The notes beneath the pieces were generated by a model that worked only from the letters and a program-made list of their open reading frames with translations, did not search any database and was not told the origin of the DNA. DNA of 60,282 bases from Verrucomicrobiaceae bacterium (GTDB taxonomy: Bacteria > Verrucomicrobiota > Verrucomicrobiia > Verrucomicrobiales > V1-33): positions 1-60,282 of the forward strand of contig JAIXVE010000191.1 in NCBI GenBank assembly GCA_027483175.1, in the 5' to 3' direction. The position numbers and the translations under genes were made by a program. Below are positions 11,432 through 25,641 of the stretch, piece after piece (within the stretch, counting starts at the first letter, position 1; the number at the start of each line of letters is the position of its first letter).

Positions 11432-14158
11432 TCAGTCGAGCCAGATGAATTCGTTGGTGCGGAAGAGGGCGCGGACGAGGGCGGGCCATGGATCGGCGCC
11501 GGTGGCGCGGGCGTTTTCGAGGAAGGCGGTGGCGTCTCGTGATTCGTCCGTGGTGGGAGGACGGGAGAAGAGTTGTGAGAACAGACTGGCGATGCGGGAA
11601 GGATTGTCAGGAGATTCGCGGACGAGAGCGGCGGCGAAGCGGTCGGCCTGGCGGTGGACGAGTGGGTCGTTGAGGAGGAAGAGGGCCTGGAGGGGAGTGG
11701 TGCTGGTGAGACGCTGGCCGGTGCTGGCGGAGGCGTCGGGGCCGTCGAAGACGGAGAGGAACGGGTGTTTCTGGATGCGCGGGGTCATCAGGTACACGGT
11801 GCGGTGGTCTGAGTCGTAGATGGCCTTGAACGGATTGTGCTGGGTGAATTTCCAGTCTTTGGGTGGAGGGAACGGGTGAGGGCCGGGTGGGCCGGTTTTG
11901 AGGGATCGGCCGAGGAGGAGGAGCGTGTCGCGCAGGGATTCGGCGTCGAGACGCTGGCGAGGGAAGCTGGAGAGGAGGGAGTTGAGAGGGTCTGATTCGG
12001 CGGCGGCGGGGGAGCGAGTGGAGGCCTGCTGCCATGTGCGGGAGAGGAGGATGCGGCGGTGGAGCGGCTTGAGTTGCCAGCCGTCGCTGCTGAAGCGTGA
12101 GGCGAGCCAGTCGAGGAGATCCGGTTGGGAGGGAGGCTGGCCCTGGCGGCCGAAGTCGTTAGGGGTGGGGACGATGCCGGTGCCGAAATGGTGGAGCCAG
12201 ATGCGGTTGACGGCGACGCGGGCTGGGAGGGGATTGGAAGGGTGGAAGATCCAGTCGGCGAGGGCGAGACGGCCGCTGGTGGGGTTGTCAGGAGGGAGCG
12301 GGTGGCCGCCGAGGACGGTCAGGAAGCGGCGCGGGACGGATTCGCCGGGCTGTTCGGGGTTGCCCTTTTTCTGGACGGTGGCGTTGCGAGGTTCCGGGGC
12401 GTCGGTGACGGCGTAGGCGGTGTCGCGGAGCGGGTTGGTGATTTTTCCGGAGACGAGCGGGATGAAGTCGCGCTGTTTCTGTTCCAGTTCGATGCCTGGC
12501 CACGGGTAGCGGGTGCTTTGGAAGATGCCGTAGAGGGCGTAGTAATCCTGAGTGCTGACGGGGTCGAATTTGTGGTCGTGGCAGCGGGCGCAGCTGATGG
12601 AGGTGCCGAGGAAGGCGCGGCCGAGGTTGTCGATGGTGTCTTCGATGGTTAGGTGCCATGGGTAGTCGTCGACGCGGGAGCCGAAGCGTCGGGAGATGGC
12701 GAGGTAGCCGGTGGCGGTGATGGCGGCGGCGCGATCGGTGTCCGGGAGGTCGGGGACAAGGTCGCCGGCGAGCTGGAGCCTGACAAATTCCGGATAGGGA
12801 AGGTCCCTGCTGACGGCGGCGATGACCCAGTCGCGGTAGCGATAGGCCTGAGGGACGGGGAAGTCGGAATTGTCGCCGGCGGTATCGGCGTAGCGGACGA
12901 CATCGAGCCAGTGGCGGCCCCAGCGTTCGCCGTATTGAGAGGAGGCGAGGAGACGGTCGACGACCTTTGCGAAGGCGTCGGGTGAGGAGTCAGCGAGGAA
13001 GGCGGCGACGTCGTCCGGGGAGGGCGGGAGACCTGTCAGGGTGTAGGAGGCGCGGCGGATGAGCGTGCGGCGGTCGGCGTCCGGGGCGGGTGTCAGGGAG
13101 GTAGCTTCGAGGCGTGCGAGGATGAAGCGGTCGAGGTCATGGCGTGGCCATGAGGCGTCGCGGACGGCGGGCGGGGGCGGGTCGGTTAGGGGTTTGAGGG
13201 ACCACCAGTCGGCGGCGGCGCGGAGGGAGGCGGCGGAACGTTCGCGAGTGAGGGCGACGGTGTCGTCGGTCCGGGGATCGGGGGCACCCATGGTGATCCA
13301 TGAGGCGAGGTCGGCGATTTCTGATGGTTCGAGCGGGTGGTCCGGCGGCATGGCGGAGTCCTGCTGCTGACGGCGGACGGCGATGATGAGTGGGCTTTGG
13401 TCGGGATGGCCTGGGATGATGACTGGGCCGTGATCGCCGCCGCGGAGAATGCCGGCGCGGCTATCGAGGAGGAGGCCCCCGCGGAGGGTTTTGGCTGAGG
13501 CGCTGTGGCAGTCGAAGCATTTTCCGATGAGGAGCGGGCGGATGCGCTTTTCGAAGAAGGCGAGTTGTTCGGTGGAGGGATGGAGGTTGAAGCCGCTGGA
13601 GGGATCGGGAGGAGGGATGGGGCCGTCGCCGGCCCAGAGTTCGATGCCTGAGAAGTTAGCGGCGCCTCCGTCGGCGGTGATGCGGATGCGGCCTTGATTG
13701 GGGCGGCAGGGCCACGGGCCGAGGCGGTGCCATGAGCCGCCGGTGCCGGTGGAGAACTTGTCGAGGACGGTGCGGCCGTTGATGGCGAAGCGGCATTGCT
13801 CCGATTGGTTGTCTTCCCAGATCCAGAGGACGATCTGGTGAGGGTCGTCGGGGAGGTTGGAGAATTCGAGGGAGGCGTCGCGGCCCCATGTGCTGCTGCG
13901 GAGCATGCGGGCGCGTGCGGGGTCGGTTGGTGGGTGGAGGGGGACCTGCTGATTTTCGAAGTGCTGGCCGGAGGCTTTGAAGTCAGGGGAGTTGCTGCTG
14001 CCGAGCCACTGGCGGCCGTCGATGATCAGGGCTGGGCCGTTGAGGTTGACGGCCTTGATGAAGCGGGCGTCTTCGGCGCGAGTGGTGATGGGGGCGACGG
14101 TAGCGGCGATGGCGGCGAGCCATGCGGCGGCACTAAGCGAGGATCTGATGAACGACAT
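11432..14158 (-). CDS. PSCyt1-DUF1549-DUF1553 (planctomycete cytochrome C) protein, module 1
   Basis: 908 residues, secreted (MSFIRSSLSAAAWLAAIAATVA). Residues 30-180 look like a malectin/CBM-type beta sandwich (FIKAVNLNGPALIIDG start). A PSCyt1 haem site follows, CFDCH with Cys214, Cys217 and His218; then DUF1549 with CARCHDHKFDPVSTQDYY, and C-terminal DUF1553 with RVAVNRIWLHHFG and LDAESLRD. Proteins of this architecture are a PVC hallmark, usually paired with DUF1501 proteins and often near polysaccharide or sulfatase genes; their reaction is not established. It lies downstream of the DUF1501 gene and overlaps its end by 26 bases, so the two are co-translated. The DUF1501-first order is the reverse of module 2. 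Confidence 0.93.
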   Translation of the reverse strand: MSFIRSSLSAAAWLAAIAATVAPITTRAEDARFIKAVNLNGPALIIDGRQWLGSSNSPDFKASGQHFENQQVPLHPPTDPARARMLRSSTWGRDASLEFSNLPDDPHQIVLWIWEDNQSEQCRFAINGRTVLDKFSTGTGGSWHRLGPWPCRPNQGRIRITADGGAANFSGIELWAGDGPIPPPDPSSGFNLHPSTEQLAFFEKRIRPLLIGKCFDCHSASAKTLRGGLLLDSRAGILRGGDHGPVIIPGHPDQSPLIIAVRRQQQDSAMPPDHPLEPSEIADLASWITMGAPDPRTDDTVALTRERSAASLRAAADWWSLKPLTDPPPPAVRDASWPRHDLDRFILARLEATSLTPAPDADRRTLIRRASYTLTGLPPSPDDVAAFLADSSPDAFAKVVDRLLASSQYGERWGRHWLDVVRYADTAGDNSDFPVPQAYRYRDWVIAAVSRDLPYPEFVRLQLAGDLVPDLPDTDRAAAITATGYLAISRRFGSRVDDYPWHLTIEDTIDNLGRAFLGTSISCARCHDHKFDPVSTQDYYALYGIFQSTRYPWPGIELEQKQRDFIPLVSGKITNPLRDTAYAVTDAPEPRNATVQKKGNPEQPGESVPRRFLTVLGGHPLPPDNPTSGRLALADWIFHPSNPLPARVAVNRIWLHHFGTGIVPTPNDFGRQGQPPSQPDLLDWLASRFSSDGWQLKPLHRRILLSRTWQQASTRSPAAAESDPLNSLLSSFPRQRLDAESLRDTLLLLGRSLKTGPPGPHPFPPPKDWKFTQHNPFKAIYDSDHRTVYLMTPRIQKHPFLSVFDGPDASASTGQRLTSTTPLQALFLLNDPLVHRQADRFAAALVRESPDNPSRIASLFSQLFSRPPTTDESRDATAFLENARATGADPWPALVRALFRTNEFIWLD

Positions 14159-15542
14159 GGCCGTGGACGTCGGTTAGGCGGAAGTCGCGACCGCCGTGAC
14201 GGAAAGTCAGGCGTTCGTGGTCGATGCCGAGGAGGTGAAGGATGGTGGCGTGGAAGTCGTGGACGTGGACGAGGTTGGAGGCGACCGTGGCTCCGGTGTC
14301 GTCGGTGGAGCCGTGGGAGATGCCGCCTTTGACGCCGCCGCCGGCCATCCATGAGGAGAAGCAGGCGCTGTGGTGGCCGCGGCCTTTGGTGCCGTCGACG
14401 CCGGGGGTGCGGCCGAATTCGGTGGTCCAGACGACGAGGGTGTCGTCGAGCATGCCTCGGCGTTTGAGGTCGCGGAGGAGGCCTGCGACGGGTTGGTCGA
14501 TGTTGCGGGCGTGCTGGGCGTGTTCGGCCATGTCGCCGTGCTGGTCCCAGTTGTGGCTGGAGCTGCCGTCGACGATTTCGACGAAGCGGACACCGCGTTC
14601 GGCCATGCGGCGTGCGACGAGGCATTGCCAGCCGAAGCCGTCGGACTGGCCGCGTTTCATGCCGTAGAGGGCTAGGGTTTCGTCTGTTTCGCTGTCGGTG
14701 TTGAAGACTTCGCGGGCACCTGACTGCATGTGGAAGGCGGTTTCGAAGGAGCGAATGCGCGCGTCGAGGCGGGAGTCGTGGCCGCGGGCGTCGAGGTGGC
14801 GGCGGTTGAAGGCTTCGGTGAGGCCGTTTTCGAGTTCCTGGAGGCCGGTGGTGGAGGAACGGCGGTCGAGATTGGCGATGGGTTCGGGGCCTGGGATGAC
14901 GCGGACGCCCTGGTGGTAGGCGGGGAGGAAGTCGTTGCTGAAGATCTGGGTGCCGGCGTAGGGCATGGCGGCGGCGAGGACGACGAATGATGGGAGGTTG
15001 CGGTTGAGGGTGCCGAGGCCGTAGCTGACCCACGAGCCGATGCCGGGGCGGGAGAAGAAGAATGAGCCGGTGTGGATGCCGAGGGTGGCGTTGTAGTGCT
15101 CGTTGTCGTTGCCCTTCATGGAGCGGATGACGCAGATGTCGTCCATGCATTCCCGGAGATGGGGGAAGAGGTCGCTGACCATGGTGCCGCACTGGCCGCC
15201 GGGACGGAATTGCCAGCCGGGTTTGAGGAGGACGCGCTGCTGGTTGGAGAGGCCGCCGCCGATGCCGGTTTTTTTGCCGTCGGCGCGGTAAAGTTCGGGT
15301 TTGTGGTCGAACGTGTCCATGTGGGAGACGCCGCCGTTGGAAAAGATGAAGATGACGCGCTGGGCGCGGGCGGGGAGGTGGGGGGAAGCGCCGGCGAGGG
15401 GGTCGCGGTCGGCGGCCGGGGAGTCGGCGGCGAGGAGTTCGGAGAGCAGGCCGGGGAGGATGAGGGAGCGGCCCGCGAGACTGCGGAGGGCGGCGCGCCG
15501 GCCGATGGGGGGAGGGGCGGCGGGATGAGGCGGGGGCGGCAT
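14133..15542 (-). CDS. DUF1501 (sulfatase-like, Tat-exported) protein, module 1
   Basis: 469-residue DUF1501 protein, alkaline phosphatase/sulfatase-like fold. The N-terminus has a twin-arginine-like signal (GRRAALRSLAGRSLILPGLL). Characteristic segments are RVIFIFSNGGVSHMDTFDHKP, GSWVSYGLGTLNRNLPSFVVL, LVVWTTEFGRTPG, KGRGHHSACFSSWMAGGGVKGG and the closing LLGIDHERLTFRHGGRDFRLTDVHG. It overlaps the PSCyt gene by 26 bases, so co-expression with it is likely. The partner's haem motifs suggest a periplasmic oxidoreductive or polysaccharide-related process, but no activity is proven for DUF1501. The ATG at 15542 opens a proline-rich 14-residue leader before the Tat motif, so a later start is conceivable. 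Confidence 0.93.
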   Translation of the reverse strand: MPPPPHPAAPPPIGRRAALRSLAGRSLILPGLLSELLAADSPAADRDPLAGASPHLPARAQRVIFIFSNGGVSHMDTFDHKPELYRADGKKTGIGGGLSNQQRVLLKPGWQFRPGGQCGTMVSDLFPHLRECMDDICVIRSMKGNDNEHYNATLGIHTGSFFFSRPGIGSWVSYGLGTLNRNLPSFVVLAAAMPYAGTQIFSNDFLPAYHQGVRVIPGPEPIANLDRRSSTTGLQELENGLTEAFNRRHLDARGHDSRLDARIRSFETAFHMQSGAREVFNTDSETDETLALYGMKRGQSDGFGWQCLVARRMAERGVRFVEIVDGSSSHNWDQHGDMAEHAQHARNIDQPVAGLLRDLKRRGMLDDTLVVWTTEFGRTPGVDGTKGRGHHSACFSSWMAGGGVKGGISHGSTDDTGATVASNLVHVHDFHATILHLLGIDHERLTFRHGGRDFRLTDVHGHVVHQILA

Positions 15543-18776: not shown

Positions 18777-20207
18777 TCAGGCGAGGAGATTGCGGATGAC
18801 GTGGCCGTGGACGTCGGTGAGGCGGCGGTCGACGCCGCCGGCGCGGAAGGTGAGTTGTTCGTGATTGATGCCGAGGAGGTGGAGGATGGTGGCGTGGACG
18901 TCGTAGACTTCTGTGGGGTTGTGGCGGTCGAGGGGTTTGTAGCCGAATTCGTCGCTGAGGCCGTGGGTGACGCCGCCGCGGATGCCGCCGCCGGTGAGCC
19001 AGTTAGTGAAGCAGAACGGGTTGTGGTCGCGGCCTTTGCCGCCCTGGGTGCTGGGCATGCGGCCGAATTCGGTGGTCCAGAGGATGAGGGTGTCGTCGAG
19101 GAGGCCGCGTTGTTTGAGATCTTTGATGAGGGCGGCGGCACCGTGGGCGAAGCCGCGGGCGAGCGGGCCGTGGTCGCGTTCGACGTCTTCGTGGGAGTCC
19201 CAGTTGCGGCGAGGGAAGCCGTTGTCGTTGCCGCTCCAGATCTGGACGAAGCGGACCCCGCGTTCGAGGAGACGGCGAGCGGCTAGGCATTTGCGGCCGA
19301 AGATGTCGATTTCTTCGGCGTCGTTGATGTCTTTGGGCCATTCGCGTTTGTCGTCGCGGATGCCGTACATTTCGCGGATGGCGGCGGGTTCTTTGGAGAA
19401 GTCGAGGGCGTCGGGAGCGGCGAGCTGCATGCGTGCGGCGAGTTCGTAGGAACGGATGCGTGCGTCGAGGCGGTCGTCGCCGGGGCGCGAGGCGGCGTGA
19501 GTGTGGTTGAGAGCGGCCATGAGCCGGTGGGCGTCGGCTTCGCTCTGGGGGGAGACGAAGCTGGCGCGTTTGTCAGGGAAGAGATCGGCGACGGGGGTTT
19601 CTGTGCCTGGGTAGATGATGGTGCCCTGATGCTGGGCCGGGAGGAAGGCGGCGTCCCAGTTTTTGGTGCCATTGGAGGCGAGGCCGCGGTGGTCGGGGAG
19701 GACGACGAAGGCGGGGAGGTTTTCGTTCATGGAGCCGAGGCCGTAGCTGACCCATGCGCCGGCGCTGGGGAAGCCTGGGCGGTTGAATCCGGTGGTCTGG
19801 AGGAGCGTGCCCTGGGAGTGGACGCCGGTTTTGCCGACCATGTTATGGATGAAGGCGAGATCGTCGACGACGGGGCCGAGAGCGGAGACGGGTTCGCCGA
19901 GCATTTTGCCGGATTGGCCGTAGGGTTTGAAGTCCCAGACTGGGCGGAGCCATGGGCCGAGACCGTTCTGGAAGGCTTCGACGGGTTCGCCGAAGTCGCT
20001 AGGCTGGCCGTGGCGTTTGATGAGTTCGGGTTTGAAGTCGAAGAGGTCGAGGTGGCTGGCGGCGCCGGCCATGAAGAGCTGGACGACGCGTTTGGCGCGC
20101 GGGGGGTGCTGGGGGAAGGGGAGGGCGGGGGAGTTCTCGCGGGCGAGGAGGGAGGCCAGGGCGATGCCAGGGAAGGACTGGAGGAGCGAGCGGCGGGAGA
20201 GGTGCAT
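18777..20207 (-). CDS. DUF1501 (sulfatase-like, Tat-exported) protein, module 2
   Basis: 476 residues starting at ATG 20207 with a classical Tat signal, SRRSLLQSFPGIALASLLA. DUF1501 landmarks are VVQLFMAGAASHLDLFDFKP, GAWVSYGLGSMNENLPAFVVL, LILWTTEFGRMPS, KGRDHNPFCFTNWLTGGGIRGG and HGLSDEFGYKPLD, and the end LLGINHEQLTFRAGGVDRRLTDVHG closely parallels module 1. It is the second gene of a minus-strand operon, 16 bases after the DUF1549/DUF1553 gene. The operon is divergent from a two-component system that may control it. The reaction is unknown for the family; the periplasm is the expected location. Confidence 0.94.
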   Translation of the reverse strand: MHLSRRSLLQSFPGIALASLLARENSPALPFPQHPPRAKRVVQLFMAGAASHLDLFDFKPELIKRHGQPSDFGEPVEAFQNGLGPWLRPVWDFKPYGQSGKMLGEPVSALGPVVDDLAFIHNMVGKTGVHSQGTLLQTTGFNRPGFPSAGAWVSYGLGSMNENLPAFVVLPDHRGLASNGTKNWDAAFLPAQHQGTIIYPGTETPVADLFPDKRASFVSPQSEADAHRLMAALNHTHAASRPGDDRLDARIRSYELAARMQLAAPDALDFSKEPAAIREMYGIRDDKREWPKDINDAEEIDIFGRKCLAARRLLERGVRFVQIWSGNDNGFPRRNWDSHEDVERDHGPLARGFAHGAAALIKDLKQRGLLDDTLILWTTEFGRMPSTQGGKGRDHNPFCFTNWLTGGGIRGGVTHGLSDEFGYKPLDRHNPTEVYDVHATILHLLGINHEQLTFRAGGVDRRLTDVHGHVIRNLLA

Positions 20208-20223: not shown

Positions 20224-22878
20224 TCAGTCGGCGAAGTTGAATTCGTTGAGATTGAGGAGGACGCGGCAGGTATTGGCGAGCCCGTGGGTGTTCGCGTAGG
20301 CGGCGGTGGTGGCGAGTTCGTCGGGGGAGGGATCGCGCTGGAGAGAGCGGTGGAAGGCTTCGCGGACTTTATCGGATAGGGAACCGGGGAGTGCGTCGAG
20401 AGAGGTGGCGAAGTTAGAAGCGGCGACGAAAGTGAGTTGGTTGTTGAGTTGGGCGAGGGCCTGGAGCGGGGTGATGGTCTGGGTGCGGCGGTCGACGAGG
20501 AGGGAGGGATCGGCGCAGTCGAGCGTGGCCATCCATGGCTGGGGTTTGCTGCGGACGAGGAATCGGTAGATGGAGCGGCGGTGGAGGGCTGGGTTGGCTA
20601 GGTCGGCGAGCTGGTATTCGTAGTGTGGGGAGTGTTCCGGGTGGAGGACGACGAAGTCCTGGAAGGCTGGGCCGCCCATGGTGGGGTTGAGGAGACCGGA
20701 GACGGCGAGGAGACTGTCGCGGATGGATTCGGCTTCGAGTTTGCGGCGGTTCATGCGCCAGAGGAGCCGGTTTTCGGGGTCGGAGCTGGCGGCGTCGGGA
20801 TTGAAGTGTGAGGAGGACTGGCGGTAGGTGTGGCTAGTGACGAGGAGGCGGTGGAGACGCTTGAGCGAGCCGCCGTGGTCGCGGAAGTCGGCGGCGAGCC
20901 AGTCGAGGAGGGCGGGGTGAGAGGGGAGACCGCCCATGCGGCCGAAGTCGCCGGGGGTATCGACGAGCCCGCGGCCGAAGTGGTGCTGCCAGACACGATT
21001 GACGATGCTGCGCCATGTGAGGGGATTGGCGGGGTCGGTGATCCAGTTGGCAAGGGCGGCGCGGCGTGCGCCTTCCGGGGCGTCTGGTGGGATGGAGAAG
21101 CGGCCGGGGAGGGATTTGACGGCGAGGATGGCACCGGGGGGGGCTGGTGGGCCGGGTCTGCGGACATCGCCGCGGGAGAGGACGTGGATGGGGCGTGGTT
21201 TGCCGCCGTTAGGGCCGGTTCCGGTGAACGTGCCGGAACCGTTATGGACGGTGCCGCAGTAGACGCGTGAGGGAGGCGGGAGGGCGTTGAGTTTGGACGT
21301 GATTTCGGCGAGATGGGAGCGGGTGGTAGTGAGTTCTGCGGCGGCGGCTGGGCCGATGAGGGATTCGACGATGAGGAGCCGGGCTTTTTCGAGATTGGCG
21401 ATGGAGACTGGGGGAGCGGCGAGGGTGGCGGCGTCTGCGCCTGGGTACCAGCGGTCGGTTAGGTTGCTGCGGAGCCAGCGGGGAGCGGCTTCGACGCTGT
21501 CGAGGGAGGAGACGGCGGCACCGGCGGCGAGGTTTTGGCCGGCTGCGTCGAGGATTTCGAGTTCGGCGAGGGCGAAGATGTAGTCCTTCTGGCGATGGGC
21601 GAGGGTGGTGGCGGTGACGCGGACGAAGCGGGCGGTGGTTTTGGATTTGAAGGAGACGGCGGTGATTTTCGGGTTAGGGAAGTCGGCGGCGGAGTGGTCG
21701 GCGATGGTGACGATGTCTTTTTTGAAGTCTGGGTCGTTGGAGGCTTCGACCTTGAAGCGTGGGGGGAAGCCGAAGCCGTCGCCGATGCCGGCGAAGTCGT
21801 CGTGGCAGGGATGGAGGATGGTGGTGGTGAAGGCGGTGGGGCGAGCGAGGTCGATCTGGACCCATTTGGGGGAGGCCTGGGAATCGGAGATGGCGGCGTG
21901 GAAGCCGGCCTGGGCGGCTAGGGAGGCGGCAGGCTGGCGGGCGTCGGCGATGAGTTTATCGAGAGCGGTTAGGGAATCGGCGCCGCGCGGGAGGGCTGGG
22001 GCGATGAGGCTGGCCTCGCGGGATTTGAGGGACGATTCTTCGGTGAGGAGCGTGCGGCGTTTGGCGGCGGTGGCGGGGTCGGCGTCGTAGGGACGGTCGG
22101 CGCGGTCGACGGCGGCGAAGACGGCCTGGAGACTGTAGTAATCTTCTGCGGAGACCGGGTCGAATTTGTGGTCGTGGCACTGGGCGCAATGGACGGTCAG
22201 GGAAGTGAACGTGCTCATGGCGTTAGTGACCATGTCATCGCGGTCGAGGTGGCGTGCGATTTTGCCGTCGGTTTTGTCTTCGGGGACTTCGGCGTGCCCG
22301 ATGAGGTCCCATGGTCCGGCGGAGATGAAGCCGAGGGCTTCGATGCCGTCGCGGGAGTCTGGGAAGAGGACATCGCCGGCGAGTTGTTCGGAGACGAAGC
22401 GGGCGTAGGGTTTGTCGGAATTGAGGGCGCGGATGACGTAGTCGCGGTAGGGCCATGCGTTAGGGCGCGGCTGGTCCTTGTCGTAGCCGTGGGTGTCGCC
22501 GTAGTGGACGGCGTCGAGCCAGTGGCGTGCCCAGCGTTCGCCGTACTGGGGGCTGGCGAGGAGACGGTCGGCGAGGGCGGCGGTGGCGGCGTCTGGATTG
22601 GTATTGAAGGCGGCGATGAATGCGGTGGTTTCGGTGTGGGAGGGAGGGAGCCCGGTGAGGTCGTAGGAGAGCCTGCGGATGAGGGTGCGGGGGTCGGCTG
22701 GGGGAGCTGGGTGGGTGGGGGCGAGGGCGGCGCGGATGAAGTGGTCGACTGGGTTGGAGGTGAGGGGAGCGGGAGAGGGGATGGGGAGGAGAGACCACCA
22801 TGGTTCCGTTGCGGCAGGAGGGGAGGCAGCGGCTGGGAGCGAGAGAAGGAGGGCGGCGGCCAGAGATCTGGGGAGCAT
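20224..22878 (-). CDS. DUF1549-DUF1553 cytochrome protein with inserted discoidin-like domain, module 2
   Basis: 884 residues from ATG 22878, which opens a signal peptide (MLPRSLAAALLLSLPAAA). A longer open frame upstream is an artefact of the antisense G-bias. DUF1549 starts near residue 40 (NPVDHFIRAAL, RLSYDLTGLPPS) and carries the haem-like CAQCHDHKFDPVSAEDYY. A discoidin/F5-8-type domain follows (WVQIDLARP...FPPRFKVEAS...ARFVRVTATTL...FALAELEI), then DUF1553 (SIVNRVWQHHFGRGLVDTPG, LEAESIRDSLL). It lacks the PSCyt1 haem domain present in module 1. It is first in the operon with the DUF1501 gene and is divergent from the sensor kinase gene across 98 bases. Confidence 0.93.
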   Translation of the reverse strand: MLPRSLAAALLLSLPAAASPPAATEPWWSLLPIPSPAPLTSNPVDHFIRAALAPTHPAPPADPRTLIRRLSYDLTGLPPSHTETTAFIAAFNTNPDAATAALADRLLASPQYGERWARHWLDAVHYGDTHGYDKDQPRPNAWPYRDYVIRALNSDKPYARFVSEQLAGDVLFPDSRDGIEALGFISAGPWDLIGHAEVPEDKTDGKIARHLDRDDMVTNAMSTFTSLTVHCAQCHDHKFDPVSAEDYYSLQAVFAAVDRADRPYDADPATAAKRRTLLTEESSLKSREASLIAPALPRGADSLTALDKLIADARQPAASLAAQAGFHAAISDSQASPKWVQIDLARPTAFTTTILHPCHDDFAGIGDGFGFPPRFKVEASNDPDFKKDIVTIADHSAADFPNPKITAVSFKSKTTARFVRVTATTLAHRQKDYIFALAELEILDAAGQNLAAGAAVSSLDSVEAAPRWLRSNLTDRWYPGADAATLAAPPVSIANLEKARLLIVESLIGPAAAAELTTTRSHLAEITSKLNALPPPSRVYCGTVHNGSGTFTGTGPNGGKPRPIHVLSRGDVRRPGPPAPPGAILAVKSLPGRFSIPPDAPEGARRAALANWITDPANPLTWRSIVNRVWQHHFGRGLVDTPGDFGRMGGLPSHPALLDWLAADFRDHGGSLKRLHRLLVTSHTYRQSSSHFNPDAASSDPENRLLWRMNRRKLEAESIRDSLLAVSGLLNPTMGGPAFQDFVVLHPEHSPHYEYQLADLANPALHRRSIYRFLVRSKPQPWMATLDCADPSLLVDRRTQTITPLQALAQLNNQLTFVAASNFATSLDALPGSLSDKVREAFHRSLQRDPSPDELATTAAYANTHGLANTCRVLLNLNEFNFAD

Positions 22879-22976
22879 GGTGGTTTCTAAACGTGCTGCG
22901 AGGTGGGGATTCGTCGCCGCAAACCGGGAAAGCGGACGGGGGATGCAAAGCTGGCGGGAGGTGTCATGGTGCGGGG

Positions 22977-24956
22977 ATGATGAGAATGCTGAGCGTTGGG
23001 ATGATCCTGTTGAGTGCGGGGTGTGGGACGGGTGTGGCTGGGGATGTTCCGATGATTGAGCGGTGGCGGCGGTGGATGGTGCCTGAGCTTCGGGACGAGG
23101 CGGCGAGACTGGAGGCGTTGCGAGCGGAGCGGGCGAGATTGCCGGAGGGGCCGGGGGAGCCTGATTTTTCGTCGACGGGGTATCGGAGTGTGACGGAGGC
23201 GGTGGATGTGGCGGAGAAGTGGGTGCAGGTGGATCTTGGGAAAGTGCTGCTGTTGGATGACATTGTGGTGATGCCTGCGGTGGTGCCGTCGAAGGCTGGG
23301 GAGCCGGTGGTGGTGGGATTTCCGCTGAGGTTTCGAGTGGAGGTGTCGGAGGATCTGGATTTCGGGAGGCGGGAAGTGGTGTTTGACCGGACGGAGGCGG
23401 ATTTTCCTGTGCCTGGGCCGGTGCCGGTGATGATCCGCGGGGTGGGGCGGCGCGGGAGGTATGTGCGGGTGACGGCGGTGAAGTTAGGCGGGGAGCCGGA
23501 CAATCATTTTCTGGCGCTGGGGGAACTGGTGGTGTGTTCCGGGGGACGGAACGTGGCGGATGGGGCGCTGGTGCAGGCGAGGGACATGCTGGCATCGCCG
23601 AGGTGGAGCCTGCGGGGGTTGGCGGACGGGATTTCGGTGATGGGGCGGCCGACGGAGATCCGGCGGTTTCCGACGAATGGGTATCACGGGGCGATGGGAG
23701 AAGCGGGAGGGGAGCAATGGGTGCAGGTGGATCTCGGGGAGGAGAAGGTGATTGAGTCGGTGGTGCTGATTCCGGCGCGGCCTGGAGACATGGCGGACAC
23801 GATTGGGTATGGATTTCCGGTGCGGTTCCGGGTGGAGGCGTCGGTGGACGAGGGGTTTGGGGAGGTGGTGGCGGTTGGTGGGTCAGGAGGGGTGGACTAT
23901 GAGAATCCCGGGGATCGGCGGGTGGTGCTGGGTGCGGGCGGGGTGCGGGGTCGATATGTGAGGGTGACGGCGGAGAAGCTGTGGGGTGAGCCTGGGGGCG
24001 GGGTGTTTGCGCTGGCGGAGATGGAGGTGAATGCGGGGGGGCGGAATGCGGCGCTAGGGAGTGTGGTGACGGCGTCCGGGCAGTTGGAGGGGAAGGCGGA
24101 GCGGTGGGCTCCGGCGTTTCTGGTGGACGGGGTGGCACCGCCTGAGGGGATGGGGACGTATGCGGACTGGCTGGCGGCGATGGCGCGGAAGTATGAGATT
24201 GTGAAGGAGACTGGGTTGCTGGAGCGGCGGCCTTGGGAATTGCGTGAGGAGGCGGACTGGAGGCTGGGATGGCTGGGGTCTGGGATGGCGGGAATGCTGG
24301 TGGTGGCTGGGGTGGCTGGGTGGTGGAGCGGGCTGGTGCGGGAGCGGCGGCGGACGCAGCAGTTGCGTGCGGGGATTGCGAGGGATCTGCATGATGAGAT
24401 CGGGAGCAATCTGAGCAGCATCGGGTTGCTGAGCGAGCTGGCGATTGGGGCGGCTCCGGATGCGGGGGCGATGCAGATGGAGCTGGAGGAGATCCGGCGG
24501 GTGGCGCTGCAGACGGCGGATTCTATGCATGACATTGTGTGGCTGATTGGGCCTGGGCGGAAGACGATGGGGGATTTGTCGGCGCGGATGCGTGAGACGG
24601 CTGGGCTGATGCTGGCTGGGATGGAGTGGACGGTGGAGGCGCCGGATGGTGGTGGGGAGGACCGGTTGAGTCTGGGGGCGCAGCGGGACATGTATTTGTT
24701 TTTCAAGGAAGCGCTGCATAACATCCGGAGGCATGCTGGAGCGACGAGTGTGAGGATTCAGCTGGTGAGGCGAGGGCGGACGATGGAGTTGACGGTGGAG
24801 GACAATGGGCGGGGATTTGATCCTGAGCTGAGGTCGGCTGGGTATGGGTTGGCGAACATGAGGCAGCGAGCGGAGGCGTGCCGCGGGAGCCTTGTGATCG
24901 GTGCTGGCAATGGGAGCGGGGCGCGTTTAGTATTCACGATACCATGCGGCCGGTGA
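22977..24956 (+). CDS. NarL-type sensor histidine kinase with two discoidin-like sensor domains
   Basis: 659 residues from ATG 22977, with a signal or anchor (MMRMLSVGMILLSAGCG). Residues about 60-200 and 205-360 are two discoidin/F5-8-type repeats, each with WVQVDLG, a F-P-x-R-F-R-V-E strand, GRYVRVTA and FALAEMEV/LALGELVV. A membrane helix lies at 434-454. The HisKA_3 box RDLHDEIGSNLSSIGLL (His472) and a HATPase_c with FFKEALHNIRRHAGA, DNGRGFDP and GYGLANMRQRAE complete it. It would sense a ligand, perhaps a glycan, outside the membrane and phosphorylate the next gene product. The discoidin repeats resemble the domain inside the divergently encoded DUF1549/DUF1553 protein, which suggests regulator and target see the same ligand. 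Confidence 0.92.
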   Translation: MMRMLSVGMILLSAGCGTGVAGDVPMIERWRRWMVPELRDEAARLEALRAERARLPEGPGEPDFSSTGYRSVTEAVDVAEKWVQVDLGKVLLLDDIVVMPAVVPSKAGEPVVVGFPLRFRVEVSEDLDFGRREVVFDRTEADFPVPGPVPVMIRGVGRRGRYVRVTAVKLGGEPDNHFLALGELVVCSGGRNVADGALVQARDMLASPRWSLRGLADGISVMGRPTEIRRFPTNGYHGAMGEAGGEQWVQVDLGEEKVIESVVLIPARPGDMADTIGYGFPVRFRVEASVDEGFGEVVAVGGSGGVDYENPGDRRVVLGAGGVRGRYVRVTAEKLWGEPGGGVFALAEMEVNAGGRNAALGSVVTASGQLEGKAERWAPAFLVDGVAPPEGMGTYADWLAAMARKYEIVKETGLLERRPWELREEADWRLGWLGSGMAGMLVVAGVAGWWSGLVRERRRTQQLRAGIARDLHDEIGSNLSSIGLLSELAIGAAPDAGAMQMELEEIRRVALQTADSMHDIVWLIGPGRKTMGDLSARMRETAGLMLAGMEWTVEAPDGGGEDRLSLGAQRDMYLFFKEALHNIRRHAGATSVRIQLVRRGRTMELTVEDNGRGFDPELRSAGYGLANMRQRAEACRGSLVIGAGNGSGARLVFTIPCGR

Positions 24957-24972
24957 GACTGGCGGCTGGGCT

Positions 24973-25641
24973 ATGATCATGACAACGAGTGAACAACCAA
25001 TGGCAGCGGTGGAGCCGGTGACGATCTGGCTGATTGAGGACAATGAGACCTTCCGGAAGAGTCTGGCGCGCGGGCTGGAGCGGACGGGGAAGTTTGAGTG
25101 TCCGGGGAGTTTCGGGACGGCGGAGGAGGCGCTGGCGGAGAGTGGGGTGGAGCCGAGTGTGGTGCTGATTGATGTGCGGCTGCCGGGGATGGATGGGATT
25201 GAGGCGATGGGGCGGCTGAGGGAGAAGCTGCCGCATGCGGCGCTGATTGTGCTGACGGTGTTTGAGGAAGAGGACAAGATCATGCGAGCGATCTGTGCTG
25301 GGGCGCAGGGGTATCTGCTGAAGACGGCTCCGGTGTCGGAGATTGCGCTGGCGATTGACGACGTGCTGGACGGCGGGTCGCCGATGAACAGCCGGATTGC
25401 GCGGCGGGTGCTGGAGTTGTTTTCGCGGCTGGTGCCGCCGAGGATGGATTACGGCCTGACGAATCGGGAGAAGGAGATTCTGCAGCAGCTGGTGGAGGGG
25501 CGGATCAAGAAGGAGATTGCGGCGCTGGTGGGGTTGAGCGTGCACACGGTGAACACGCACATGAGGAACATTTACGACAAGCTGCAGGTGAACACGGTGA
25601 ACGGGGCGGTGGCGAAGGCGCTGCGGGAGCGGCTAGTGTGA
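24973..25641 (+). CDS. NarL/FixJ-family response regulator
   Basis: 222 residues. The receiver domain spans residues about 16-135: WLIEDNETF acidic pocket, phosphoacceptor Asp in VLIDVRLPGMDG, Thr in VLTVFEEED and Lys in YLLKTAPV. A LuxR-type helix-turn-helix follows at 160-222: LTNREKEILQQLVEGRIKKEIA and LSVHTVNTHMRNIYDKL. It begins 16 bases after the histidine kinase gene, so the two are a cognate pair in one transcript. The likeliest target is the divergent promoter of the DUF1549/DUF1553-DUF1501 operon. Transcription converges on mfd with 14 bases between stops. Confidence 0.95.
   Translation: MIMTTSEQPMAAVEPVTIWLIEDNETFRKSLARGLERTGKFECPGSFGTAEEALAESGVEPSVVLIDVRLPGMDGIEAMGRLREKLPHAALIVLTVFEEEDKIMRAICAGAQGYLLKTAPVSEIALAIDDVLDGGSPMNSRIARRVLELFSRLVPPRMDYGLTNREKEILQQLVEGRIKKEIAALVGLSVHTVNTHMRNIYDKLQVNTVNGAVAKALRERLV

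Follow-up and report, generated by a model that had tools for sequence, protein, structure and literature searches.

A sensor kinase and a divergently encoded DUF1549/DUF1553 protein with related CBM32-like units: a candidate surface-sensing switch in Verrucomicrobiaceae

Why should a sensor histidine kinase and the protein encoded divergently from it carry the same kind of discoidin-like domain? This question is raised by a stretch of 60,282 nucleotides from a Verrucomicrobiaceae bacterium (contig JAIXVE010000191.1 of assembly GCA_027483175.1; hereafter the window), in which a kinase with two such domains and its response regulator lie back to back with a DUF1549/DUF1553 gene that encodes a third. 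Our results show that these domains, here called CBM32-like units after the carbohydrate-binding module (CBM) family, are kin, and that the linkage of the two genes is conserved in several gene orders. It appears likely, at a probability of roughly 0.6, that the kinase and regulator form a surface-sensing switch for the DUF1549/DUF1553 protein and its DUF1501 partner, with both types of unit recognizing the same kind of polymer. Below, a unit kinase and a unit DUF gene are a kinase and a DUF1549/DUF1553 gene that carry the unit. The features of the locus are:

18777..20207, minus strand: DUF1501 protein (Pfam), downstream partner of the DUF1549/DUF1553 gene and a neighbour that recurs in many related loci
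20224..22878, minus strand: DUF1549/DUF1553 protein with a CBM32-like insert, 884 aa
20296..21066, minus strand: PSD1 (DUF1553) domain (Pfam)
21439..21921, minus strand: CBM32-like unit of this protein, about residues 320-480 (Pfam and fold)
22105..22752, minus strand: PSCyt2 (DUF1549) domain (Pfam)
22174..22188, minus strand: CAQCH motif (CxxCH) of this protein (alignment)
22879..22976, no strand: divergent intergenic region of 98 bp, presumed shared regulatory region
22977..24956, plus strand: sensor histidine kinase, 659 aa, ATG at 22977 (Pfam, motifs, structure model)
23166..23630, plus strand: kinase unit d1, about residues 64-218, CBM32-like
23667..24131, plus strand: kinase unit d2, about residues 231-385, CBM32-like
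24285..24344, plus strand: presumed membrane helix of the kinase, about residues 437-456 (by eye)
24357..24953, plus strand: DesK/VraS-like kinase core, containing RDLHDEIGS
24973..25641, plus strand: LuxR/NarL-type response regulator, receiver and GerE domains (Pfam), presumed recognition helix SVHTVNTHMRNIY

From left to right, the DUF1501 and DUF1549/DUF1553 genes on the minus strand are followed by the gap of 98 bp between the divergent start codons and by the kinase and regulator genes on the plus strand; position 20224 is the 3' end of the DUF1549/DUF1553 gene. The preliminary description of this locus had read two discoidin-like repeats into the kinase and a similar domain between the two family domains of the divergent protein, and both readings were borne out. 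In the kinase, WVQVDLG recurs at residues 82 and 248, FPLRFRVE/FPVRFRVE at 115/280 and GRYVRVTA at 160/325, and PF00754 matches two stretches (47.8 bits; cut-off 28.2). Read by eye, the sequence suggests that d1 and d2 are located outside the membrane, with one membrane helix; the structure model has a single long helix at residues 395-492. The kinase contains HisKA_3 and HATPase_c domains, which together with the receiver and GerE domains of the regulator make up the HisKA_3 two-component architecture. The top structure matches of its core, in which RDLHDEIGS is presumably the H-box, are DesK and VraS. In a hybrid two-component sensor (HTCS) the receiver and DNA-binding domain are fused to the kinase. 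The window's kinase is not of this type, since its regulator is a separate gene (24973-25641). One paralogous unit kinase is found elsewhere in the same genome, unlinked to the DUF1549/DUF1553 gene.

The DUF1549/DUF1553 protein shows the corresponding motifs WVQIDLA (339), FPPRFKVE (371) and ARFVRVTA (416), and its PF00754 match (31.0 bits; cut-off 28.2) lies between PSCyt2 (243 bits; cut-off 29.8) and PSD1 (298.4 bits; cut-off 28.5), which makes it a PSCyt2-PSD1 protein. The best fold matches of its unit are glycan-binding CBM32 modules, so that the unit is predicted to have a CBM32 fold. PSCyt1 was not matched in this protein by the Pfam scan; it was matched in 16 of 22 linked loci. Both cysteines and the histidine of CxxCH are invariant across 52 aligned rows, namely the window and 51 chosen matches of the protein search with the DUF insert.

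Several related proteins carry more than one unit or F5/8 stretch. A DUF1549/DUF1553 protein with two units is encoded at L141:3734-7033 in genome G035, where a search for unit kinases at E<=1e-30 gave nothing besides this protein. Database DUF proteins with two or three F5/8 stretches include P0021 and P0002, the latter a PSCyt1-PSCyt2-PSD1 protein of 1521 aa with three F5/8-type-C stretches. In addition, contig G000:C147 holds a 3799-aa open frame with several partial PSCyt2 matches (at about 40-49 kb).

How close are the units to each other? When the kinase ectodomain was compared with its own genome, only three matches were obtained at E<=0.01: itself, the paralogous kinase and the DUF1549/DUF1553 protein (9e-19). 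Conversely, the DUF insert had five matches at E<=1e-6: its own sequence plus all four units carried by the two kinases. The genome has 26 PF00754 matches at E<=0.01, units included, and the remaining PF00754 domains were retrieved by neither search. The units were also compared with 5.8 billion proteins. Among the best 120 of 782 matches of the DUF insert (proteins of 0.55-1.75 times the query length) were 108 PSCyt2/PSD1 proteins and 12 kinases; among the best 120 of 2162 matches of the kinase ectodomain were 113 kinases and 3 PSCyt2 proteins, and the other 4 had no further Pfam domain or no Pfam domain at all. In these searches the units are much more similar to one another than to the remaining discoidin domains; the opposite outcome would have refuted the preliminary description. 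The subfamily is marked by G-Y/F-H-S ahead of KWVQ-DLG and by GFGFP-RF behind it; the first of these reads GYRS in d1, GYHG in d2 and GFHA in the DUF unit of the window. Against solved structures, sequence searches gave no match to the DUF unit at E<=1 and weak matches to the kinase ectodomain (best E 0.0028).

Is the linkage conserved? Unit kinases were counted in 63 of 93 genomes (one of them, G035, really has the DUF protein mentioned above), and a unit DUF gene (>=126 bits) in 48 of 93, one per genome. For 23 of these 48, a unit kinase is found no more than ~7 kb away on the same contig. Linked pairs occur in different genera and families and in several gene orders: divergent in the window's genus, L044 and L045, with the DUF gene following the regulator (e.g. 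in L051, L053 and L126), and with the DUF gene between kinase and regulator in L046. A pair that is not conserved would likewise have refuted the preliminary description. On the kinase tree, linked rows fall in four groups, with 7 changes against 20.9 with shuffled labels (FastTree, with long-branch warnings). Moreover, 18 genomes have a linked unit kinase as well as an unlinked one, and in 16 of them it is the linked kinase that is more similar to the DUF unit.

For comparison, we used 60 unit-free HisKA_3 kinases from seven of the same genomes (the remainder of 63 after 3 without a separate stretch were dropped; some of the stretches overlap). A unit-bearing PSCyt2/PSD1 gene occurs within 6 kb of none of these 60 and of 22 of the 99 unit kinases (p=1.8e-5), and any PSCyt2, PSD1, DUF1501, PSD4 or DUF1552 gene near 9/60 and 44/99, respectively (p=1.2e-4), kinship being ignored in both p-values. 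The 99 derive from 108 search rows: the window, 100 inspected rows and 7 weak rows left out (G063:C9, G020:C40, G032:C88, G018:C82, G087:C63, G009:C80, G004:C113). The 100 include the DUF protein L141 and two kinase fragments, L136 and L139, of which L136 is counted in the 99. Where a unit kinase has a PSCyt2/PSD1 neighbour within 4 kb, this neighbour carries the unit in 22 of 28 loci, as compared to just one of the 48-67 PSCyt2 matches in each of seven genomes.

Further support comes from the DNA ahead of the genes. In one sister clade, a TGTCCCGCGCTCGCGTGGCATGA-like block, an imperfect dyad with a 2-bp centre (A-type), precedes the unit DUF gene in ten loci (L052, L053, L056, L058, L059, L062, L063, L065, L069, L091). 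A matrix built from these DUF-side sites also found sites ahead of kinase genes, which were absent from the matrix. In 18 whole genomes, chosen rather than sampled, TGTCMCGCNNNCRCGTGGSWTG gave 60 matches when two mismatches were allowed, as against 6 for the control. Of the 23 matches with at most one mismatch, 14 precede a unit DUF gene and the other 9 a unit kinase, so that at close match the dyad precedes these two genes and no others in these genomes; 21 of these sites were placed by script, the G092 DUF site and the G045 kinase site by coordinates. The two-mismatch sites lie mostly elsewhere and look like chance. The DUF-side sites placed by script end 31-34 bp ahead of the predicted start codon, while distances to the kinase starts are less certain because those starts were guessed. 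A dyad common to both genes in the sister clade supports a regulatory circuit. The A-type dyad is also present in a cultured relative, Brevifollis gellanilyticus (L187). The dyad is perfect in G054, even though the DUF gene lies ~9 kb from the kinase. Among 20 inspected unlinked DUF loci, it was found just in L347 (G054) and L350 (G081, two mismatches), and none precedes the DUF gene of G071 or G083, which have no unit kinase.

In a second clade, the kinase is preceded by CCCCCGAA-N2-TTCGGGGG (B-type), in L070, L083, L085, L086 and L089 within a gap common to the kinase and a divergent PSD4-type gene. Across the same 18 genomes, 24 B-type sites were found when one mismatch was allowed, as against a single palindromic site for the control; 10 of the 24 precede a unit kinase. 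Nine more lie in eight loci, where judging from open reading frames the gene directly downstream is of PSD4 type in six, DUF1552 in one and another protein with a signal-like start in the eighth; five sites in G030 and G051 were left out. The dyads follow the regulators: near kinases, the A-type occurs solely with the helix S[VI]HTVDTYLRRIY (19 of 25 loci) and the B-type solely with Y-TAD-YIR-type helices (12 of 21), and neither dyad was found in loci with other helices, including 32 with an unparsed helix. This match could also stem from common descent. The helix in the window's regulator, SVHTVNTHMRNIY, represents a third type. The divergent gaps of L044 and L045 both hold GACAAT(T)C[GA]CACC[TA]TCATGTGA, with TCACA-N6-TGTGA in L045, and the window's gap holds just CGCACCAT, on the minus strand directly ahead of the kinase start; these motifs were picked out by eye and post hoc.

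Taken as a mechanism, the switch might work as follows. The two units of the kinase would recognize the same kind of polymer on which the single DUF unit docks, and ligand binding outside the membrane may alter autophosphorylation of the kinase. The phosphorylated regulator would bind the dyad and activate both promoters, giving positive feedback. The exported DUF1549/DUF1553 protein would be anchored to that polymer through its unit and act on it, probably by redox chemistry via the CxxCH motif, with DUF1501 as a possible partner. What we observe is the kinship of the units, the linkage of the genes and the dyads that they share; phosphorylation, regulator binding, ligand and effector chemistry are all steps that we infer. 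In short, kinase and regulator probably raise the DUF1549/DUF1553 protein when the sensor meets the same putative sugar-like ligand.

Several observations weigh against this switch. Unit DUF genes lie away from any unit kinase in 25 of the 48 genomes, and none of the 20 such loci inspected (all but G077, G074, G080, G070 and G088) contains a unit kinase; in G054 one lies on the same contig ~9 kb off, and the G081 pair may be split by contig ends. Conversely, a unit-bearing neighbour accompanies only 22 of the 99 unit kinases. The choice of the seven control genomes was made after the linkage had been noticed. Co-occurrence is modest: once genus g5 is set aside, whose 20 genomes have neither gene, unit kinases are found in 45 of 49 genomes with a unit DUF gene and in 17 of 24 without (p=0.03, with no correction for kinship). 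A tree of 220 units separates d1, d2 and the DUF unit into groups of their own (3 changes, against a minimum of 2), so the units diverged long ago. The window's DUF unit ranks its partner kinase 37th of 98 kinases. L047 and L048 have their clade's recognition helix, and the dyad was not found there. In the window itself, the A-type dyad was not found (best matrix score 10.9 of a possible 38.9), nor was a convincing operator in the 98-bp gap; for the window's genus no operator was identified. The preliminary description had considered plausible a self-contained circuit in which sensor and effector bind the same glycan. The circuit gains from the dyad shared by both genes in the sister clade, and a common glycan is a prediction. 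Exclusiveness of the pair is not supported, since about three in four unit kinases examined lack a unit-bearing DUF neighbour and many adjoin other genes, often further planctomycete-type cytochrome genes. Nor is a special match of the window's partners supported, as the DUF unit scores its partner at 68.7 bits and the unlinked paralogue at 67.2, a margin of 1.5 bits.

An alternative explanation is that kinases of this family regulate planctomycete-type cytochrome genes and sugar-use genes in general, and that the unit is a widespread surface domain of the Planctomycetes-Verrucomicrobia-Chlamydiae (PVC) group, used by the two proteins for different ligands. Many neighbours fit this view. Of 101 unit-kinase loci, 20 contain a PSD4/PSCyt3-type gene (DUF1592, DUF1588 or the like), in 13 cases with no unit DUF gene adjoining, and 18 contain a DUF1552 gene. 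A unit-bearing DUF neighbour is missing for 77 of the 99 unit kinases, and some kinases adjoin a PSCyt2/PSD1 protein without this unit (that of L055 has another F5/8 domain). Of 71 unit kinases scored in 80 named loci, a set with many short contigs that partly duplicates other loci (e.g. L168 and L042), 28 have any planctomycete-type cytochrome-related gene within 6 kb, 8 a unit DUF gene and 12 PSD4 or DUF1552; records with cytochrome-type neighbours include Gemmataceae (L191, with a unit DUF gene, and L205), Planctomycetaceae (L201), Rhodopirellula rubra (L239) and Lentisphaerales (L244). The separate groups of d1, d2 and DUF units point the same way. Yet PSCyt2/PSD1 neighbours carry the unit far more often than PSCyt2 genes genome-wide, and the close-match A-type dyad marks the unit DUF gene and unit kinase alone. 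We consider a general regulator rather unlikely, though the best placed of the alternatives. A sugar-use gene also adjoins the pair in one clade: in 16 family f3 loci (L054, L075, L087, L098 to L131), kinase and regulator are followed by an FGGY kinase gene, and the one scanned, that of L106, scores above the XylB xylulokinase cut-off. This is a possible hint that the f3 ligand contains a pentose.

The sensor might instead monitor the effector itself or a shared scaffold, with like units and helices packing together so that the kinase reads the presence of the effector. Sequences and models give both proteins a similar layout, in which a helix is followed by a unit and the start of a further unit. 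However, by fold the DUF unit best matches glycan-binding CBM32 modules, and we regard this explanation as improbable. About as improbable, or slightly more so, is that another factor, such as a sigma factor or separate regulator, binds the shared dyad, leaving the DUF gene outside the control of the kinase and regulator. The fixed distance of the dyad to the predicted DUF start resembles that of a promoter element, and an ECF (extracytoplasmic function) sigma factor was earlier proposed to control a PSD1/PSC2 gene of Rhodopirellula baltica (PMC2754498). Nevertheless, the dyad type on the kinase side tracks the regulator helix, a match that shared descent confounds. Finally, chance adjacency of two domain-rich surface proteins, conceivable in genomes with 48-67 PSCyt2 matches, is disfavoured to the point of being negligible by the control kinases, none of which has a unit-bearing neighbour, and by linkage repeated across several genera and gene orders.

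The surface-sensing switch could be one case of something wider. With somewhat less than even confidence, we suggest that a PVC-wide, lectin-headed two-component family is dedicated to switching planctomycete-type cytochrome pairs by clade-specific helices and dyads, with one branch in which sensor and target would use the same domain for the same glycan. If so, the DUF1549/DUF1553/DUF1501 and DUF1592/DUF1552 pairs would be inducible, glycan-directed redox enzymes. Planctomycete-type cytochrome proteins are abundant (48-67 PSCyt2 matches in each of the seven genomes) and obscure in function; the sensor's ligand, once found, would be a candidate substrate of the effector, and deletion of the regulator would reveal the regulon.

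Elsewhere in the window, within 11432-15542 on the minus strand, a second DUF1549/DUF1553 gene, with a PSCyt1 match and no PF00754 match, adjoins a DUF1501-like frame (14133-15542). Between 15872 and 17268, also on the minus strand, two neighbouring genes match SMI1/KNR4 (SUKH), the second slightly below the cut-off; members of this family are often immunity proteins.

How does the locus compare with known systems? Our literature search, with most subscription journals outside its reach, found no description of this two-component family. The units share Pfam membership and, in the DUF protein, the predicted fold with CBM32 and F5/8 type C domains, but form a distinct subfamily (GY/FH(S), KWVQ-DLG, GFGFP-RF). 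The DUF1549/DUF1553 protein has the domain order of PSCyt2-PSD1 proteins of Verrucomicrobia and Planctomycetes, and differs in that no PSCyt1 match was found. PSCyt proteins with CBMs have been described, with PF00754 listed among their domains under protein-protein interaction; the main text of that survey states that nothing is known of their function, and does not contain 'histidine kinase' or 'discoidin' (PMC5615132). DesK/VraS-type (HisKA_3) systems have the same kinase core and a receiver-GerE regulator, but here two outside CBM32-like units and the linkage to planctomycete-type cytochrome genes are added.

The nearest working analogue is RsgI/SigI, where a membrane sensor bears the same class of carbohydrate-related domain as the enzymes of its regulon. 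RsgI6 of Clostridium thermocellum carries GH10, and sigma-I6 recognizes predicted promoters both of xyn10 genes and of its own gene, sigI6 (PMC4711584). The window's system would work in a similar way without being a member, as the RsgI N-terminal anti-sigma domain has no Pfam match in the kinase. An anti-sigma/sigma pair acts there, whereas here a histidine kinase and LuxR-type regulator would act on a DUF1549/DUF1553 target. If this is true, the locus would be a two-component version of the RsgI principle that the sensor wears the enzyme's domain.

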